A stretch of DNA of 64,000 nt. Origin: Flagellimonas chongwuensis. Its GTDB lineage: Bacteria > Bacteroidota > Bacteroidia > Flavobacteriales > Flavobacteriaceae. The notes beneath the pieces are model-generated. The model saw nothing but the letters and a program-made list of their open reading frames with translations, had not been told where the DNA came from and ran no database searches. The stretch lies in assembly GCF_013376415.1 (NCBI RefSeq), contig NZ_WYET01000001.1, positions 868,001 through 932,000 of the forward strand, written 5' to 3'. The translations under genes were made by a program, and so were the position numbers. The stretch's first letter is position 1; every line of letters starts with the position of its first letter. Of the stretch, positions 1 to 7,099 are shown in pieces.

Positions 1-624
1 TTCATATCCTTCGGGATGAGTGATGACAAAATCGGCATCCTGCAGTTTCATCATCTGAATAAAGGAATTGGCCACCGCATGTGGCAATGCTTTGGGGTGG
101 GGTGCCCAGGACAAAACTACTTTCGGTCTCTTTTTTACTTCATTCTCCTTCAAAGTAATGGCATCGGCCAAAGCCTGAAGCGGATGCCCTACGGAACTTT
201 CCATGTTCACCACTGGAATTGTGGCATATTTGGCAAATCCATTGATTACCTCCTCGGCTTCGTCTTTTTCTTTGTCCACCAAACCTGCAAAAGCGCGAAT
301 GGCTACAATGTCGGAATATTGGGAAACCACTTGTGCGGCCTCTTTGATATGTTCCGAAGTGCCTTGGTCCATTACAGTGCCATCACCATATTCCAGCGCC
401 CAGCCTTCGTTGCCGAAATTCATGATCATTACTTCCATACCAAGGTGCATGGCCGCCTTTTGCGTGCTTAAACGGGTCCTAAGGCTATTGTTGAAAAACA
501 ACAGACATATGGTTTTACGTTTGCCCAAATCTTCAAACCGATATGGGTCTTTTTTTAGGGTTATTGCTTCATCTACCCAATCGGGTAGGGATTCTATATC
601 GTTTACGGATAAATAATGCTTCAT
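1..624 (-). CDS. argF': N-acylornithine carbamoyltransferase (probably N-succinylornithine type), 3' part missing
   Basis: The gene runs off the left edge; about the first 208 residues are present. It starts with an ATG that overlaps the argD stop as TAATG, so the two are translationally coupled. The carbamoyl-phosphate motif appears as FFNNSLRTRLST (residues 43-54), the SLRTR form seen in N-acetyl/N-succinylornithine carbamoyltransferases rather than the STRTR form of ordinary ornithine carbamoyltransferase. It transfers a carbamoyl group to an N-acylated ornithine in the cytoplasm. The residue that sets acyl specificity in this family (Pro90 in the Bacteroides fragilis succinyl enzyme, Glu92 in the Xanthomonas acetyl enzyme) aligns with Ser90 here (MDQGTSEH). 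I recall that replacing Glu92 by Ser shifts the acetyl enzyme toward succinylornithine, so a succinyl substrate is favoured. The catalytic HCLP region lies outside the window. Confidence 0.93.
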   Translation of the reverse strand, partial: MKHYLSVNDIESLPDWVDEAITLKKDPYRFEDLGKRKTICLLFFNNSLRTRLSTQKAAMHLGMEVMIMNFGNEGWALEYGDGTVMDQGTSEHIKEAAQVVSQYSDIVAIRAFAGLVDKEKDEAEEVINGFAKYATIPVVNMESSVGHPLQALADAITLKENEVKKRPKVVLSWAPHPKALPHAVANSFIQMMKLQDADFVITHPEGYE

Positions 625-1769
625 TATAATGCTTTTTTCAGCGCTTCAAAAAATAGGTCAATGTCGTTTTTAGTGATGTTCAGTGCTGGTAAAAATCGCA
701 ACAATTTTTTGTTTTTGGCACTTCCGGTGAATATGTGCTGCTCCATGATCATTTTTTTACGGAGCTCGGCCACTTCAAAATCAAATTCCAAGCCTATCAT
801 CAATCCTCGGCCCTTTACTTTTTTAATTTTGGGTATTTCGGCTGCTTTTTCCTTAAAATACGAACCAAGTGTTGAGGCGTTCTCGATTAAATGCTCATCT
901 TCCAAAACTTCCAATACCGCCAAACTGGCTGCGCACGCCAAATGGTTACCACCAAAAGTGGTTCCCAAAAGACCATATGATGGCTTAAATTTTTCATGTA
1001 TCAAAATACCGCCTACGGGAAAACCGTTCCCCATGCCTTTGGCAATGGATATGATGTCGGGTTGTACACTTCGACTCCGCTCAGTGTCCAAATGGTGCTG
1101 AAATGCAAAGAACTTACCACTACGTCCGTATCCTGACTGTACTTCGTCCGCAATTAGGACAACATTGTGCTTGTTACATTTTTTGGCTATAAACTGAAAG
1201 AACTCTGTGGTAGGCTCGTCCAATCCACCAACACCTTGAATTGCCTCTAAAATAACGGCGCAATAGGTGCCAGTTTCAATGGCTTTTTCAAAGGCATTAA
1301 AATCGTTCAATGCCAAGAAAGTGACCTCTTGTTGCCTGTTAATGGGCGCATTGATGCTCGGGTTGTCCGTGGCGGCAACAGCAGCAGAAGTTCTTCCATG
1401 AAAACTATTGGTAAAGGCGATTACTTTTGATTTTCCTGTGTGGAACGAGGCCATCTTTAGTGCGTTTTCGTTGGCTTCGGCGCCCGAATTACACATAAAA
1501 AGGTCATAGTTTTCACAACCAGACAAATCACCTAGCTTTTGTGCCAATGCTTCCTGCAATGGGTTTTGTACCGAATTGCTGTAGAAGGCCATTTGGTCCA
1601 ATTGTTCCTTGATTCGTTTTACGTAGTGCGGATGTGTATGGCCAATGGAGATTACGGCATGACCACCATAAAAATCCAAATATTTTTCCCCTTTGTCGTC
1701 CCAAACCTCAATGCCCTTGGCCTTTACTGGAGTGACATCATATAATGGGTATACATCAAATAGTTTCAT
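624..1769 (-). CDS. argD: Acetyl/succinylornithine aminotransferase
   Basis: PLP-dependent class III aminotransferase of arginine synthesis, interconverting N-acylglutamate semialdehyde and N-acylornithine. At 381 residues it has the usual family length. Visible motifs are the NSGAEANENALK phosphate loop (94-105), IADEVQSGYGRSG (206-218) with the cofactor Asp208, and SIAKGMGNGFPVGG with the expected Schiff-base Lys244. Residues 228-235 (DTERSRSV) are unusual: other members I know go almost directly from the FFAFQH region to PDIISIAKG. These codons are a REP-like palindrome also found in the intergenic spaces of this operon, apparently inserted in frame. The stop overlaps the argF' start. A composite REP-like element separates argD from proC upstream. 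Confidence 0.95.
   Translation of the reverse strand: MKLFDVYPLYDVTPVKAKGIEVWDDKGEKYLDFYGGHAVISIGHTHPHYVKRIKEQLDQMAFYSNSVQNPLQEALAQKLGDLSGCENYDLFMCNSGAEANENALKMASFHTGKSKVIAFTNSFHGRTSAAVAATDNPSINAPINRQQEVTFLALNDFNAFEKAIETGTYCAVILEAIQGVGGLDEPTTEFFQFIAKKCNKHNVVLIADEVQSGYGRSGKFFAFQHHLDTERSRSVQPDIISIAKGMGNGFPVGGILIHEKFKPSYGLLGTTFGGNHLACAASLAVLEVLEDEHLIENASTLGSYFKEKAAEIPKIKKVKGRGLMIGLEFDFEVAELRKKMIMEQHIFTGSAKNKKLLRFLPALNITKNDIDLFFEALKKAL
1066..1087. repeat. REP-like palindrome inside argD
   Basis: The plus-strand sequence acacttcgactccgctcagtgt has arms acact/agtgt around the core cttcgactccgctcag. The core matches the intergenic REP-like copies in this operon and the kind of short palindrome scattered in many flavobacterial genomes (recalled, not searched). 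It is read through in frame and adds residues 228-235 of ArgD. Confidence 0.75.
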
Positions 1770-1869: not shown

Positions 1870-2664
1870 TTATCCTTTTCTGATTTGACTGATTTTTTCG
1901 AACGAGGATACAATTCCCCTGATCAATGATGAGCTCAATCCTTGATGTTCCATTTCGTTCAAACCTTCAATGGTGCATCCTTTTGGGGTGGTCACGCGAT
2001 CAATTTCTTCTTCTGGGTGACTGCCCGATTCTATCAATAGGCTTGCGGCTCCGTTACAGGTATGCATAGCAAGTTCTTGTGCCTCCTTGGCATCAAACCC
2101 CAATTGAATGGCTCCTTGTGTGGTAGCACGTATCAAACGCATCCAAAATGCGATTCCGCTCGCGCAGATTACGGTGGCCGCCTGCATTTGGTCCTCTGGG
2201 ATTTCCATGGTATGTCCCATTCGGTTGAAAATGGCCTTGGCCAAATCGATTCGTTTTTTGCCCAATTCGTTGCTGCAAATACAGGTCATGGATTTGCCAA
2301 CGGAAATTGCAGTGTTGGGCATACTTCGGATGATAAATTTATCCGACCCGATGATTTCTTCAATCCTAGGGATTTTAAAACCTGTGATGGTACTGATGAT
2401 CACATGTTTTTCGGTAAGTAGGTCTTTGGTTTCGTTCAATATTTTGTCAAAATGACCTGGCTGCACCGCAAAAATCAAAATATCCGAATTCCTTACCGCT
2501 TCCTTATTGTCCGACGTCACGGTAACTATTCCATATTTTTCAAACTCCTGAATAGATCTGGTGTTTCGTTTAGTGAGGTACATGGTAGTGGCCCCGTTGC
2601 TGTGCAAAATGCCCTTTGCAATGGCCAAGCCCAAGTTTCCTGCTCCTATAATGGCTATTTTCAT
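1870..2664 (-). CDS. proC: Pyrroline-5-carboxylate reductase
   Basis: NAD(P)H-dependent reduction of pyrroline-5-carboxylate to proline. The 264-residue protein begins MKIAIIGAGNLGLAIAKG, a Rossmann GxGxxG dinucleotide site at residues 7-12. It ends with the P5CR dimerisation domain, including IDRVTTPKGCTIEGL, which fits the family signature. It lies between argC (11-base spacing) and argD, an order I recognise from Flavobacteriaceae. The placement may link proline synthesis to the glutamate-semialdehyde branch, or the protein may be an operon passenger. No key residue appears to be missing. Confidence 0.94.
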   Translation of the reverse strand: MKIAIIGAGNLGLAIAKGILHSNGATTMYLTKRNTRSIQEFEKYGIVTVTSDNKEAVRNSDILIFAVQPGHFDKILNETKDLLTEKHVIISTITGFKIPRIEEIIGSDKFIIRSMPNTAISVGKSMTCICSNELGKKRIDLAKAIFNRMGHTMEIPEDQMQAATVICASGIAFWMRLIRATTQGAIQLGFDAKEAQELAMHTCNGAASLLIESGSHPEEEIDRVTTPKGCTIEGLNEMEHQGLSSSLIRGIVSSFEKISQIRKG

Positions 2665-2675
2665 GATGGTTTATT

Positions 2676-3650
2676 TTAAAAGACGCCTGCCTTCAACAAC
2701 AGACCTTCGGTTTCAGGGAAACCGAACATTAAATTCATATTCTGTACAGCTTGTCCGGATGCACCTTTCAATAAATTATCAATGACCGATGTAACCAAAA
2801 GAATATCATCGTGCTTGTGCAAATGGATGTGGCACTGGTTGGTGTTCACTACTTGTTTTAGATGCAGTTCTTTATCCGACATGTGGGTGAATGCAGCGTC
2901 TTTGTAAAAATCGTTGTACAGCTTCTTCGCATCCTCTAAATTGCCGTTGTATTTGGTGTACGCCGTGGCCAAAATTCCACGGCTGAAGTTGCCGCGATTC
3001 GGTAAAAACATCAATTTGCCCACGGAATTTCCGAAAGAGTTCAAACTTTCTCCAATTTCTCCCAAATGCTGATGGGTAAAAGGTTTGTACCAAGAAACAT
3101 TATTGTTCCTCCAGCTAAAATGGGATGTTTCCGATAATCCTACGCCCGCTCCGGTACTGCCGGTGACGGCGTTGATATGTACATCTTCCCCAAGTAAACC
3201 TGCTTTAGCCAGAGGCAAAAGCCCCAATTGGATGGCTGTCGCAAAACAACCAGGGTTAGCAATGGCCTCCGCTGATTGAATGGAAGATCTGTTTAGTTCT
3301 GGAAGCCCGTAAATAAAACGTTGCCCATTAAAAACCGAATCTGCTTGCAGTCTAAAATCATTGCTGAGGTCAATGACCTTTGTTGAGGCCGAAAAATGGT
3401 TCTCTTTCAAAAATGAAGTTGAATTGCCATGGCCCAGGCATAGAAAAACTACGTCGACCTCTGGGTTGATCTCACCGGAAAATTGGAGATCGGTAAGTCC
3501 TAATAAATCTTGATGTGCTGAGCTAATCGGTTTTCCCGCTCTTGTGGTGCTATATACAAAATCGATTTGGGCCTGAGGGTGGTTGAGCAGAATCCTGATC
3601 AATTCCCCGCCAGTGTACCCCGACCCTCCTATGATTCCTGTTTTAATCAT
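2676..3650 (-). CDS. argC: N-acetyl-gamma-glutamyl-phosphate reductase
   Basis: Third step of arginine synthesis: NADPH-dependent reduction of N-acylglutamyl phosphate to the semialdehyde. It has 324 residues. The N-terminal GGSGYTGGELIRIL (8-21) is the nucleotide-binding site, and AIANPGCFATAIQLGLLPL holds the catalytic Cys. The C-terminal half contains the expected HLGEIGESLN and LMFLPNRGNFSRGI regions. The start overlaps the argG stop by 4 bases (ATGA). If the operon uses succinylated intermediates, as Ser90 of the carbamoyltransferase suggests, this enzyme would have to accept them too. Confidence 0.96.
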   Translation of the reverse strand: MIKTGIIGGSGYTGGELIRILLNHPQAQIDFVYSTTRAGKPISSAHQDLLGLTDLQFSGEINPEVDVVFLCLGHGNSTSFLKENHFSASTKVIDLSNDFRLQADSVFNGQRFIYGLPELNRSSIQSAEAIANPGCFATAIQLGLLPLAKAGLLGEDVHINAVTGSTGAGVGLSETSHFSWRNNNVSWYKPFTHQHLGEIGESLNSFGNSVGKLMFLPNRGNFSRGILATAYTKYNGNLEDAKKLYNDFYKDAAFTHMSDKELHLKQVVNTNQCHIHLHKHDDILLVTSVIDNLLKGASGQAVQNMNLMFGFPETEGLLLKAGVF

Positions 3651-4834
3651 GAATCTTGGTTTACGTGGTTGGCTATTTTCCCTGAGTTCGACAAAATTTT
3701 GATAAAGCCCTTGGCATCATCGGCCGTCCATCCTTTGTTCATTTCGCCATAGCTTCCAAAGGAAGCATTCATCAAATCGTGTTCGGAAGTGATCCCGTTC
3801 AGCTCAAATCGGTAGGGGTGTAGGGTAATGAACACATCTCCGGAAACATGCTTCTGGGTATCTGTCAAAAAGGCTTCGATGTTTCGCATTACTTCATCCA
3901 GATAGTTACCTTCATGCAACAACATACCATAAAAATTGCCCATTTGTTCCTTTTGGAACTGCTGCCATTTGCTCAAGGTATGTTTTTCCAACAGGTGGTG
4001 CGCCTTAATGATGATCAATGGGGCGGCAGCTTCAAAACCAACCCTTCCCTTAATACCTATGATGGTGTCTCCTACATGGATATCCCTGCCTATGGCATAT
4101 TTTGAAGCAATGGCGGACAACTTCTCGATATTGGCCACTGGGGTGTACTGTTCGCCGTCCAGAGCGACCAATTCCCCTTTTTTAAATGTGAGCTTCAGAA
4201 CTTTTGATAGTTCTTTTTCCAATTGGCTCGGATAGGCGCTTTCCGGCAATGAGAGGTGAGAGGTCAACGTTTCGTCGCCTCCAACGGATGTTCCCCATAA
4301 ACCACGGTTAACGGAATATTTGGCTTTTTCCCAAGAGTAATCTATACCGTTTTGTTGTAGGTAGTTGATTTCCTCTTCCCGGGCCAATTTTTTGTCCCTG
4401 ATGGGGGTGATTATGGTAATCTCCGGTGCCAATATTTGAAAGATCATATCAAATCTTACCTGATCGTTACCCGCTCCGGTGCTTCCATGCGCTATATGCT
4501 TTGCACCAATTTTTTTGGCATGGTTTACGATCTCGATTGCTTGTACGATTCGTTCCGCACTCACCGAAAGGGGATAGGTGTTGTTCCGCAATACATTTCC
4601 GAAGATCAAAAATTTTACTACTTTTTCATAAAACGTGGCTACGGCATCTATGGAAGTATAGCTGGAAGCACCAAGAGCAAGGGCTTTTTCTTCGATTTCC
4701 TTTATTTCGTCCTTGCTAAAACCTCCTGTGTTCACACTTACTGCATGTACCTCATATCCTTCTTCTTGAGATAGATATTTGGCACAGTATGAAGTATCCA
4801 ATCCGCCGCTATATGCTAAAACTAATTTTTCCAT
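3647..4834 (-). CDS. argG: Argininosuccinate synthase
   Basis: ATP-dependent joining of citrulline and aspartate. The 395-residue protein begins MEKLVLAYSGGLDTSYCAKYL, with the SGGLDTS PP-loop of the ATP pyrophosphatase fold at residues 9-15. GAKHIAHGSTGAGNDQVRFD (about 111-130) is the family ATP/citrulline region. In this operon argG precedes argC, proC, argD and argF', so late and early steps are co-transcribed. The 3' end overlaps argC by 4 bases; the 5' spacer (about 75 bases) holds a REP-like palindrome. Confidence 0.97.
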   Translation of the reverse strand: MEKLVLAYSGGLDTSYCAKYLSQEEGYEVHAVSVNTGGFSKDEIKEIEEKALALGASSYTSIDAVATFYEKVVKFLIFGNVLRNNTYPLSVSAERIVQAIEIVNHAKKIGAKHIAHGSTGAGNDQVRFDMIFQILAPEITIITPIRDKKLAREEEINYLQQNGIDYSWEKAKYSVNRGLWGTSVGGDETLTSHLSLPESAYPSQLEKELSKVLKLTFKKGELVALDGEQYTPVANIEKLSAIASKYAIGRDIHVGDTIIGIKGRVGFEAAAPLIIIKAHHLLEKHTLSKWQQFQKEQMGNFYGMLLHEGNYLDEVMRNIEAFLTDTQKHVSGDVFITLHPYRFELNGITSEHDLMNASFGSYGEMNKGWTADDAKGFIKILSNSGKIANHVNQDS

Positions 4835-4908: not shown

Positions 4909-5523
4909 TTATTTGTCTTTCTTCTTTAGAAACAGTTGTTCCTTTATGCTTTTAAGGCGTTGAAATGCCTTGTTGTTCAATTTTTTGGTTTCCTGCTTTT
5001 TTGATGCTGGATCGTACAACATTCCCGTGCAAAGGCACATTTTTTTCTCCGTACGTGTTAGGATATCAAAGTTTTTGCAGGTCTGGCAGCCTTTCCAGAA
5101 TTCGGGGTCATCCGTAAGTTCGGAAAATGTAACAGGTTTATAACCCAGCTCGTAGTTCATTTTCATAACGGCCAGTCCAGTGGTAATGCCAAATATTTTG
5201 GCCTCGGGGAATTTTTTTCGAGAAAGGTCAAAAACAGCTTTTTTAATCTGTTTGGCCAATCCTTGGTTTCTGTAATCGGGATGTACGATCAAACCGGAGT
5301 TGGCCACAAAGTCTTTGTTGCCCCATACTTCGATATAGCAGAAGCCGGCAAATTTATCGCCATCCAAGGCAATTATGGCATTGCCGTTCTGTAGCCTTTT
5401 TATAATATATTCTGGTGTGCGTCTGGCGATACCTGTGCCGCGGACTTTTGCCGATTCGGTGATGGTATCACTTATGATCTGTGCGTATTTAAAATGAGAT
5501 TCGTTAGCAACAATAATTTCCAT
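4909..5523 (-). CDS. GNAT acyltransferase leading the arginine operon; candidate N-acylglutamate synthase
   Basis: A 204-residue GNAT-fold protein with the acyl-CoA pyrophosphate loop HPDYRNQGLAKQIKKA (about 81-96). It is the first structural gene after the arginine leader and precedes argG. No argA or argJ is visible in the window, and I recall genetic work in Bacteroidota pointing to a GNAT protein as the acylglutamate synthase, so that role is a reasonable inference. After the GNAT core comes a cysteine group (Cys146, Cys149, Cys163, Cys165; GCQTC and MCLCTG) that could bind a metal. The tail is very Lys-rich (about 175-204). Acyl-CoA and amino-acid substrates cannot be read from sequence. 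Confidence 0.85.
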   Translation of the reverse strand: MEIIVANESHFKYAQIISDTITESAKVRGTGIARRTPEYIIKRLQNGNAIIALDGDKFAGFCYIEVWGNKDFVANSGLIVHPDYRNQGLAKQIKKAVFDLSRKKFPEAKIFGITTGLAVMKMNYELGYKPVTFSELTDDPEFWKGCQTCKNFDILTRTEKKMCLCTGMLYDPASKKQETKKLNNKAFQRLKSIKEQLFLKKKDK

Positions 5524-5540
5524 TGCAAGCGATTATTCTG

Positions 5541-5624
5541 AAAAAATTAAAAAAAAATAGATTTGGTCGTTCTGCGGAAATGGACTCACCTATTTCCAAT
5601 TGATATAATGCACCCTTACGGGCG
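5541..5624 (-). promoter_or_regulatory. Putative attenuator region of the arginine operon
   Basis: On the transcript, a 5-bp stem CGCCC/GGGUG with a GUAA loop (5611-5624) contains the leader stop codon. It is followed by GGAAAU...AUUUCC (5576-5597) and then a U-rich run (5541-5557). The ACGAC at about 5564-5568 could pair with the repeated CGU codons, giving an alternative fold. The U tract lies about 18 bases past the second hairpin, so this is not a textbook intrinsic terminator. The region may instead control translation of the GNAT gene. Confidence 0.5.
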
Positions 5625-5699
5625 ACGACGACGGGGGGTAAATGGACTGATGGGAGCAGCAATGCTCAAAGAAGAAAATATGTACTCGTGTCCTTTCAT
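5616..5699 (-). CDS. Putative arginine leader peptide (27 aa, RRRRP end)
   Basis: A short ORF ends about 90 bases before the GNAT start. Its last codons are CGT CGT CGT CGC CCG TAA, giving MKGHEYIFSSLSIAAP then ISPFTPRRRRP. Four consecutive Arg codons just before the stop, directly upstream of an arginine operon, is the hallmark of ribosome-mediated attenuation. A weak promoter match (TACTTTAG, 5708-5715 on the minus strand) would start the transcript a few bases before the ATG. Nothing else in this 223-base gap looks like a gene. The ORF is too short for composition statistics, so the case rests on codon content and position. Confidence 0.7.
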   Translation of the reverse strand: MKGHEYIFSSLSIAAPISPFTPRRRRP

Positions 5700-5746
5700 T
5701 ATGAAGGCTAAAGTACAAATTAATTCGAATTGTTCTGAAGTTGTGG

Positions 5747-7099
5747 TTACTTTTTGAAGAAATATAACTTTTTCGGCCTGCTTCCTATCATTTCATAAAT
5801 AAAAAAGCCGATGACCAGAATATATTCAATCGCCAATAACCATAAACTCTCCTTATTGTCTGGATTGGTGTAGGCATAATAACTCAAAATGATAGCACAG
5901 GACCAGACCAAGGGAAACCGATAGTCGGTGAAGATGGCAAAGCCCAACAAGAAGACTACGTACCAAGGATGAACCGTGGTAGATAGAAAATAATAGCAGG
6001 CCAGTGCAAATACCATGGAGGTAATAAGGCTTTCCAAAGTCCTGTTTTTGCGAATAAAAGCGAACAATAGGATTAAGACAAGTACAATTTTTTGAATTAA
6101 CGAACCGTAGGAGTCAATCAATTCCCAAGGTTTGGCTTCGAAATAGTTTACGGCAATCTTTTTTACCACGTTGTAGATGCTGGCATTGAACTCGAAATTG
6201 GAAAACCATAATCCGACGGTGTCCGTATAGTTATCAATAAAAACGGAAGAGTAAAATGGAAGAAGTAAAGCGGCACAAGCCAGTAGGACGAGGGAGTAAA
6301 AAACGGCACTTTTTTTAAACCCGAGATATTTTATAAAAAGTGGCAGGAACATCAATGGCATTAGTTTGACCATTATGGATAGGGCATAAACCGGTGTAGC
6401 CCATAACCATTTGCTCTTGGCCATAAGATATAAGGCCCACACGAAGAAAAATAACATGACACCTTCAAAATGAAGGTTGCCCGTGATTTCGATGATGACC
6501 AATGGGTTCAAAAAATACCAAAATGCCAAATGGTTGGCCTTGTTCATGTTTTGCAGCAGCTTTCTTCCAAAGTAGAGCACGCCAAAATCGGCAATGACTA
6601 CGATTAGACGCATGGCAATTGTGGCGCCCAAGACACTTCCGCCTCCCAAGAAAACGGCAAGGGCAAAAAGTATTTGGTTAACGGGCGGATAGTTGCTATA
6701 ATGTCTTGCATTAAGGTCGGTCATTCCCGCGTACAGTTCGTTCATGCTTGGGAACGATACAGTTCCTTGTTCCATGATTTGGTCGGGTGTGTACAGATAG
6801 GGATTGATACCGTTTTTGATGAGTTCGCCATCCCAAATAAACCGATAGAAATCCTGCGAAAGATTGGGTTCTGCCATCAGGAATACCAAACGGAACACTA
6901 TTCCAGCCACTAATAGGAACTTGAAATTCCATTTTTCGAACTGAATAATTTTGGAGGTGAGGTAAAAAAGTGCACCAAATAGCATGAACAGCTTAACAAA
7001 ATCGGTGCGGACCAAATTGTAAGCAAAGCTCCAGTAGAATAAAATACAAGCGACCGCAAATAATATCGGGTATCTATGCAGTCGCCAATAAGATTGCAT
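5747..7099 (-). CDS. Integral membrane glycosyltransferase (GT-C, mannosyltransferase-like)
   Basis: A 450-residue protein with about ten hydrophobic segments and a large loop after the first few helices holding SQDFYRFIWDGELIKNGINP. That arrangement, acidic residues in the first large extracytoplasmic loop followed by NPY, is typical of GT-C/DUF2029-like enzymes that use polyprenyl-phosphate sugars. It ends the glycosyltransferase trio, 9 bases after the processive GT2. Together with the upstream DPM1-like GT2, this suggests that a lipid-linked sugar made in the cytoplasm is used at the membrane. The sugar and acceptor are unknown. Confidence 0.75.
   Translation of the reverse strand: MQSYWRLHRYPILFAVACILFYWSFAYNLVRTDFVKLFMLFGALFYLTSKIIQFEKWNFKFLLVAGIVFRLVFLMAEPNLSQDFYRFIWDGELIKNGINPYLYTPDQIMEQGTVSFPSMNELYAGMTDLNARHYSNYPPVNQILFALAVFLGGGSVLGATIAMRLIVVIADFGVLYFGRKLLQNMNKANHLAFWYFLNPLVIIEITGNLHFEGVMLFFFVWALYLMAKSKWLWATPVYALSIMVKLMPLMFLPLFIKYLGFKKSAVFYSLVLLACAALLLPFYSSVFIDNYTDTVGLWFSNFEFNASIYNVVKKIAVNYFEAKPWELIDSYGSLIQKIVLVLILLFAFIRKNRTLESLITSMVFALACYYFLSTTVHPWYVVFLLGFAIFTDYRFPLVWSCAIILSYYAYTNPDNKESLWLLAIEYILVIGFFIYEMIGSRPKKLYFFKK

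Follow-up and report, generated by a model that had tools for sequence, protein, structure and literature searches.

How is arginine synthesis kept in step with arginine supply in a bacterium whose genome gives no match to the ArgR repressor (PF01316)? ArgR/AhrC is the arginine-dependent protein repressor that exerts feedback on arg operons elsewhere. The question is raised by an arginine operon on the minus strand of the window, the whole 64,000-nucleotide stretch of Flagellimonas chongwuensis DNA analyzed here. A first-pass annotation, made from the letters alone, had proposed a leader peptide in front of this operon and attenuation by arginyl-tRNA supply. We consider it likely that a ribosome-sensed leader couples this operon to the amount of charged Arg-tRNA available and stands in for the absent ArgR. 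Judged from the comparative evidence below, Arg-tRNA supply is very likely what the leader senses.

The features of the locus are collected in Table 1. On the minus strand, a promoter-like element, the leader open reading frame (ORF), hairpin 1, a 13-nt spacer, hairpin 2, an A/U-rich stretch, and the gene of a GNAT acetyltransferase follow one another in this order, with about 90 nt between the leader stop and the GNAT start at 5523. The promoter-like element directly upstream of the ORF is conserved, and the arg operon genes downstream were confirmed by profile. The ORF ends in CGT CGT CGT CGC CCG TAA; the 27-codon frame with four consecutive Arg codons is real in the window, as the first-pass annotation had claimed, and is kept among relatives. 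Its claim that a GNRA-type hairpin loop holds the stop codon also stands, the UAA lying inside the loop of hairpin 1 (5624-5611). The second hairpin and the U-rich tract that it had placed before the GNAT gene are both present, but the tract begins 16 nt past hairpin 2 and is not conserved. At the gathering score, Rfam covariance models (T-box, Flavo-1, and the rest) matched tRNA alone in the window; below threshold, there were three matches at 5480-5780, all on the plus strand.

Table 1. Features of the arginine operon and its leader, with related features outside the window
Feature	Position	Strand	Basis or remark
A-tract 36-40 nt before the -7-like element	5751..5755	minus	Conserved in 78/80 named loci (best 80 of 527)
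Promoter -7-like element TACTTTAG	5708..5715	minus	8 nt before leader ATG
Leader ORF, 27 codons, MKGHEYIFSSLSIAAPISPFTPRRRRP*	5616..5699	minus	Same ORF end in 80/80 named loci
Run of four Arg codons CGT CGT CGT CGC	5622..5633	minus	Sequence
Hairpin 1, CGCCC-GUAA-GGGUG	5611..5624	minus	Loop 5616-5619 contains stop codon
Spacer between hairpins	5598..5610	minus	Sequence variable, length nearly fixed (comparison of relatives)
Hairpin 2, GGAAAU-A-GG-UGAGU-CC-AUUUCC, bulged A	5576..5597	minus	Covarying stem
Nearly invariant AGGUGAGUCC of hairpin 2	5582..5591	minus	112 sequences chosen with the loop pattern
U-rich tract	5541..5559	minus	No adjoining hairpin; not conserved
First gene, GNAT acetyltransferase	4909..5523	minus	Possibly an N-acetylglutamate synthase
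argG	3647..4834	minus	TIGR00032 above cut-off
argC	2676..3650	minus	TIGR01850 above cut-off
proC	1870..2664	minus	TIGR00112 above cut-off
argD-type aminotransferase	624..1769	minus	TIGR00707 best match, below cut-off (364 of 410 bits)
Replacement acetyltransferase-like first genes	L063 1650-2234; L064 1759-2352		Leader and argG retained
his operon leader MRNRNTHHHFYTCPQAR*	L286, about 1338-1447, own genome outside window		HHH codons

The named set was collected separately and consists of the best 80 of 527 confirmed loci, those of the closest relatives (Flagellimonas/Muricauda, Zobellia, Maribacter, Arenibacter, and others). All 80 show both the hairpin-1 pattern and, in place, the hairpin-2 loop motif. 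The 79 readable peptides of this set have 22 to 28 residues with 2 to 6 Arg, four of them in 47 peptides; the C terminus is RRP in 75 and PRP in 4, and the stop codon is UAA in 76 and UAG in 3. Two of the 79 have just two Arg residues, which counts against the model. The first-pass annotation had named a lack of conservation of the ORF or of the Arg run in close relatives as evidence against its proposal; tested here, conservation is strong, and in the alignment with relatives the Arg-codon run is kept while its flanks change.

In a wider set, GNAT homologues were sought in 199 genomes of the family and matched in 132, of which the 130 strong ones (L001-L030 and L083-L182) were used and the weak ones in G152 and G173 were dropped. 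A loose hairpin-1 pattern occurs in 115 of these 130 upstream sequences; 98 of the 115 have their stop two codons past the Arg codon at which the hairpin starts, which puts it in or at the loop. The hairpin-2 loop motif occurs in 119 of the 130. The 15 upstream sequences in which the hairpin-1 pattern is missing count against the model; they include some with altered hairpins (L026, L084) and some in which no leader was seen (L107, L170). Covariance model R1 matched 244 of 397 family genomes (E <= 0.05, with 16 of the 244 above 1e-3), many of which had themselves supplied sequences for the model. When 296 genomes were drawn from the order and 345 from the class, matches with E < 1e-5 came from the same family only (22 and 6 genomes), and the remaining matches were weak (4e-4 or worse); the Flavobacteriaceae form of the element therefore appears to be confined to the family. 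One genus of the family of which many species were drawn (g128; L291-L293 and L316) retains the GNAT gene and lacks the element in the members seen, so that the arg operon can evidently live without it, a further point against the model. ArgR was not matched in the g128 members G127, G317, and G440 either. In searches of 29 genomes with lax filters, the element had no strong second copy, and the additional matches were weak; of the 20 that were fetched, 18 overlap open frames of at least 70 codons on either strand, and the other two (L399 and L404) are weak.

The leader belongs to the arg operon and not to one particular GNAT gene, because two genomes retain it in front of another acetyltransferase gene and argG. 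The element is carried by G152 (E 1e-15) and G084 (E 5e-16), in which the window-type GNAT is absent or weakly matched, and Arg leaders ending in PTRRRP (L064) and RRNFSRRP (L063) precede the other acetyltransferase-like gene, which is followed by argG. One replacement first gene that was compared with the window GNAT is 24% identical to it over 131 residues; the two replacement genes share 48% identity, and Pfam calls GNAT for the L064 one only.

The reading frame of the leader was tested in 100 leaders with the strict pattern, over the 12 codons preceding hairpin 1 (1200 places). Arg codons fill 312 of the 1200 places in frame (26%), with no stop codon, against 63 and 36 of 1200 in the other two frames (3-5%), where 26 and 48 stops occur. 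Over the 15 codons ahead of hairpin 1, the 100 leaders have 325 Arg codons, of which 285 (88%) are CGT or CGC, versus 44 CGY codons of 131 in ten neighboring ORFs of the window (Fisher p 8e-30). By these counts, the Arg run is selected as codons and the leader ORF is under selection. The preference for CGY could reflect the sensing of a single tRNA-Arg isoacceptor or a requirement of the RNA for C. C exceeds G in 99 of 100 leaders, the skew being 0.26 versus -0.03 (sd 0.19) in 165 tiles of window ORFs; however, 4.2% of the ordinary tiles are equally skewed, and the C-rich leader may merely reflect its amino acids, which counts against the model.

Folded singly, the leader of the window is no more stable than its shuffles (minimum free energy z 0.16), and the structure therefore rests on comparison between species and not on the energy of a single sequence. 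In the 29 close sequences the structural evidence lies mostly in hairpin 2. The wider alignment A2 holds 100 sequences (30 close loci, 69 of 100 later family loci, and L064) and, having been aligned by the model, leans towards it; 97.0% of its cells pair, both sides change in 8 of 13 pairs, the cells changed on both sides number 105 versus 26.1 in shuffles, and the covariation score is 0.307 versus 0.140 shuffled and at most 0.084 slid. For each of the six lower-stem pairs of hairpin 2, both partners are changed in at least one sequence. Hairpin 1 shows little variation; its loops (GUAA, GUGA, GUAG, CUAG, UUAA, and UUAG) usually retain the stop codon, and a minority of leaders have a loop such as CUUG and a stop a few codons later. 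The hairpin-2 loop G[GA]UGHGU[CU]C (GGUGHGUCC) is nearly fixed, with an A on its 5' side in 90% of 112 sequences, a constancy inflated by the choice of those sequences by the loop pattern. Taken together, the substitutions indicate that both hairpins are RNA structures. Their spacing is fixed as well: counted from the first stop base, hairpin 2 lies at a median of 20 nt (quartiles 20-21; n=101), whereas the GNAT start follows hairpin 2 at a less constrained interval of up to 98 nt, for instance in leaders with inserted repeats. In L114, L120, and L149, this interval contains short inverted repeats with the look of insertions.

Bacteroidia hide their anti-Shine-Dalgarno sequence (PMC9976891, PMC8710568), and for this reason a Shine-Dalgarno reading of the hairpin-2 loop (AGGUGA) was considered. 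It was set aside, since the invariant GUCC and the change of the inner G-C pair to A-U (3 of 100) indicate structure. Sequestration of the GNAT start by hairpin 2, whose 5' arm resembles AUGGAAAU, was likewise set aside: the likeness is explicable by the encoded MEI/MKI start, and inserts are tolerated.

In 72 of the 79 named leaders (best 80 of 527 loci), the sequence TAYWTTWR stands 7-8 nt before the ATG; we take this type of element to be the Bacteroidetes -7 consensus. A leader also precedes the his operon of this genome; in it, TACTTTTG lies 7 nt before the ATG, a spacing like that of the arg leader. Transcripts start a few nucleotides past a -7 element. Given these distances, the arg and his leader ORFs both appear to be almost leaderless. 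Because a His leader with HHH codons is present, leader-peptide control is probably in use in this genome. Past the his leader stands a canonical terminator of 11 bp and a U-tract, which served as a positive control, and the layout of terminator-type transcription attenuation is evident there from the sequence.

At the arg leader, no such terminator was seen: a scan of 5400-5900 in the window gave no intrinsic terminator, nor did a relaxed scan of L001. Hairpin 2 was rejected in this role, as 106 of 112 relatives have no U-tract adjoining it and just 6 of 112 have a run of at least five T in the first 12 nt past it. An antiterminator in which the spacer pairs with the 5' arm of hairpin 2 (UUCU with GGAA) is plausible by eye in single sequences and failed its swap and shuffle controls: across 112 sequences, the fold energy is -2.07, versus -2.24 with swapped and -2.61 with shuffled partners. 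Hairpin 1 and hairpin 2 are joined by none of the top 30 covarying pairs. The check for alternative structures that had been suggested thus gave, for this pairing, a result no better than its controls. Of the earlier proposal of attenuation by arginyl-tRNA supply, the sensing part is upheld by the Arg run, its position, the promoter-like element, and the lack of ArgR, while the terminator and the alternative structures found no support. Expression is probably switched by something other than a standard intrinsic terminator.

ArgR (PF01316) is absent from 198 of 199 genomes of the family, and the exception scores 26.9 bits (27.3 with neighbours) at a cut-off of 27. In a class draw of 212 genomes, it was matched in 13 (9 strong matches), in families f47, f54, and f71. 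Six of the strong ArgR genomes have a known GNAT gene (L377, L369, L356, L380, L385, and L372); in all six, the ArgR domain stands directly before that gene, 302-353 nt upstream on the same strand. No Arg-rich leader was seen in the five f47 upstream sequences of ArgR genomes. By a loose rule, an Arg-rich short ORF is present in 43 of 73 class upstream sequences, a set that includes six ArgR genomes, one g128 genome, and the second GNAT copy of one genome, whereas shuffles satisfy the rule in 13.6% of cases and the reverse strands in 13 of 73. Several of these leaders are repeated within a family, as with PSRRRVFIPRV in f55 (L343 and L346) and RRNRFTFRV or RRNRFTYRV in f30 (L358 and L355). Upstream of GNAT, these other families also have a different hairpin with the loop CCUNNGYGG, found in 15 of 99 class upstream sequences versus 0.65 shuffled and none on the reverse strand. 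With the loop CCUAYGYGG, it follows Arg-rich leaders in L355, L358, L359, L306, L313, and L362, and the same hairpin stands in L334 and L342 with no recognised leader. Leaders were counted in 1 of 6 genomes with ArgR, a loose f71 match being taken as a leader, versus 42 of 67 of the rest (p 0.075), in a table where the rest were partly tested for ArgR and the 500 nt in ArgR genomes are largely the argR gene itself. These comparisons are suggestive of an exchange of the ArgR gene for a leader ORF at the same place.

How might such a leader work? Comparison establishes the ORF with its Arg run, the two hairpins, their fixed spacing, the place before arg genes, and the lack of ArgR; that the ribosome stalls, which way the operon responds, and what the output is are what we infer, as follows. 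Transcription would begin a few nucleotides before the leader ATG, and a ribosome trailing the polymerase on the almost leaderless ORF would reach the CGT/CGC run just ahead of hairpin 1. Were Arg-tRNA short, it would stall on the CGY codons, hold hairpin 1 open, and cover the C-rich RNA, and the operon would be on. Were arginine plentiful, the ribosome would translate as far as the stop codon, within the hairpin-1 loop, before leaving; hairpin 1 would then re-form beside hairpin 2, 20 nt from the stop, and expression would drop. Hairpin 2 presumably lies about 7-8 nt beyond the footprint of a ribosome at the stop codon, which counts against this model. As a tentative first guess, held at rather less than even confidence, the output may be Rho-dependent termination by way of the C-rich, G-poor leader; such a composition fits a Rho site guarded by a stalled ribosome, but it also simply fits the encoded amino acids. 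Control of mRNA decay or of translation by the hairpins would be our next guess.

The classical attenuators, those of the E. coli trp, his, and leu operons, suggest a weak intrinsic terminator as the alternative output, with hairpin 1 and the U-rich spacer terminating transcription unless a ribosome occupies them. A relaxed scan finds a hairpin with a U-rich tail in 62 of 130 family leaders, versus 5.8 in mononucleotide shuffles, and most of the first matches listed are hairpin 1; the same scan gives 24 versus 7.0 shuffled in 94 upstream sequences of other families. There is also a mild excess of T in the 8 nt after hairpin 1 (mean 3.88 versus 2.98 in the region from hairpin 2 to the ATG), and the his operon of this genome evidently has the layout of transcription attenuation with a terminator. 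On these grounds of scan and T excess, a weak terminator at hairpin 1 stays a live rival. However, hairpin 1 has only 5 bp and a mean of -6.5 kcal/mol versus -15.7 for the his terminator, at least five T within the 8 nt past it occur in just 32 of 112 sequences versus 21% of background windows, and the scans of the window and of L001, like the missing U-tract at hairpin 2, speak against termination; we regard it as unlikely. Control of mRNA stability or translation in the manner of Salmonella speF, in which a ribosome pausing on Arg codons would set the folding of the stop-codon hairpin and of the downstream one, requires no terminator, and the anatomy is close, since the speF leader described in PMC6386406 likewise combines Arg codons with a hairpin that contains the stop codon and another one shortly after it. 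Yet L114 and L120 tolerate about 50 nt of inserted sequence between hairpin 2 and the start of GNAT, and the first gene of L064 lies some 200 nt further away, so that direct occlusion of the GNAT start codon is unlikely; control of this kind as a whole seems to us conceivable but doubtful.

Hairpin 2 might instead be the binding site of a protein or of an RNA polymerase factor, with the leader ribosome merely gating it. Its nearly invariant loop, preceded by A, invites such a reading, within the limits set by the choice of those sequences, as does the CCUNNGYGG hairpin of the other Bacteroidia families, and there is a precedent in LoaP, a NusG paralog that binds a UNCG-loop hairpin in leaders according to the relevant section of PMC12691694. 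LoaP-type antitermination itself was rejected: the genome of the window has a single NusG-type gene (PF02357) and hence no specialised LoaP-like paralog. With the lack of a second strong copy of the element in the 29 genomes also against it, we think this reading improbable. The fungal arginine attenuator peptide is a precedent for a peptide that itself, and not through its codons, stalls the ribosome in response to arginine. The nearly fixed terminal RRP (75 of the 79 named leaders, best 80 of 527 loci) would suit such an arrest, but the terminal RP is also fixed by the pairing of hairpin 1, the length of the peptide and the residues preceding the Arg run vary across the family, and no conserved arrest motif was seen in the peptides, which makes nascent-peptide arrest very improbable. 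That the ORF lies by mere chance over a DNA operator or some other RNA element is hardly credible: hairpin 2 is a near-palindrome that could double as a DNA site, but it has G-U pairs and an asymmetric loop, and the Arg enrichment (312 versus 63 and 36 of 1200) is specific to one frame, which is free of stops.

Our preferred reading, the ribosome-sensed leader, can be extended to join these observations. The leader would be a terminator-free sensor of Arg-tRNA, in which the nearly leaderless mini-ORF puts a ribosome on the stop-codon hairpin and the hairpin with the nearly invariant loop, at its fixed 20 nt, is read by a factor, the ribosome, or the polymerase. It would have replaced ArgR across much of Bacteroidia, a leader ORF taking the place that argR holds in lineages that kept it, and the loop families GGUGHGUCC (Flavobacteriaceae) and CCUNNGYGG (others) would mark successive versions of one switch. 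As a whole, this extension is speculative, and we doubt that every part of it will hold.

The arg leader shares with the trp, his, and leu attenuators a short ORF rich in codons for the product of the operon and placed directly upstream of it. It differs from them in that no terminator with an adjoining U-tract and no antiterminator were found, in that its stop codon lies within a hairpin, and in its second hairpin with a nearly invariant loop. Arg-codon leaders are already known for other genes in Salmonella and S. aureus, as are leader peptides of a general kind in Flavobacteriaceae, according to the sources cited below. Of the systems worked out so far, the Salmonella speF leader is the nearest to this one; as described in PMC6386406, its orf34 has consecutive Arg codons that sense arginine and a hairpin just past its stop, as here; the Arg codons, stop-codon hairpin, and next hairpin of speF control Rho termination and mRNA decay. 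The same account shows the differences: speF encodes ornithine decarboxylase and not an enzyme of arginine synthesis, the Arg codons are the 12th and 13th of 34, the ORF is led by a Shine-Dalgarno sequence, and speF starts at nt 516 of the mRNA; no sequence likeness was seen. Homology of the orf34 type, with the HIRRT core of DUF2618 given in that account, was rejected, as no HIRRT core was seen by eye in the peptides and about 90 nt from stop to GNAT stand against a long structured leader. In S. aureus, rbfL is likewise a small ORF upstream of its target that registers arginine limitation through Arg codons, but, as the parts of PMC13009471 on rbfL report, it uses AGA/AGG codons, overlaps the rbf ribosome site, represses under limitation, and has a biofilm regulator as its target.

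For Flavobacterium psychrophilum, it has been proposed that leader peptides attenuate amino acid operons, and conserved elements precede pheA, hisG, and others; the section of PMC9723704 on leader peptides names no arg leader. No arg-operon leader in Bacteroidetes was found in the literature searched, which took in sections of PMC8632094 and extended neither to the supplement of PMC9723704 nor to the 2010 attenuation survey of Lopatovskaya and others (cited in PMC4833913), so that an earlier in silico mention is possible. The first-pass annotation had called arg attenuation in Flavobacteriaceae undescribed as far as it knew, and within that scope nothing contradicts it. The arg leader and ArgR/AhrC have the same feedback target; ArgR, which is absent here, is a protein repressor.

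The leader suggests a route for arginine feedback on synthesis in a large marine group in which ArgR was not found. It is a conserved and compact element in which the position of a ribosome is seemingly read out with no recognisable terminator. If a leader peptide has indeed taken over the place of a repressor gene, this would be a clean case of regulator replacement. The element, with its ORF, two hairpins, fixed spacing, and nearly invariant loop, could be added to the RNA family libraries that now lack it.

The first gene of the operon deserves a remark of its own. The GNAT protein of the window shares 96-97% identity with its nearest named counterparts, from Flagellimonas and Muricauda, no NCBIfam name reaches its cut-off, and the protein is a candidate for an unnamed N-acetylglutamate synthase. 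Its motifs CQTCKN and MCLC, with four Cys residues, are invariant in ten relatives.
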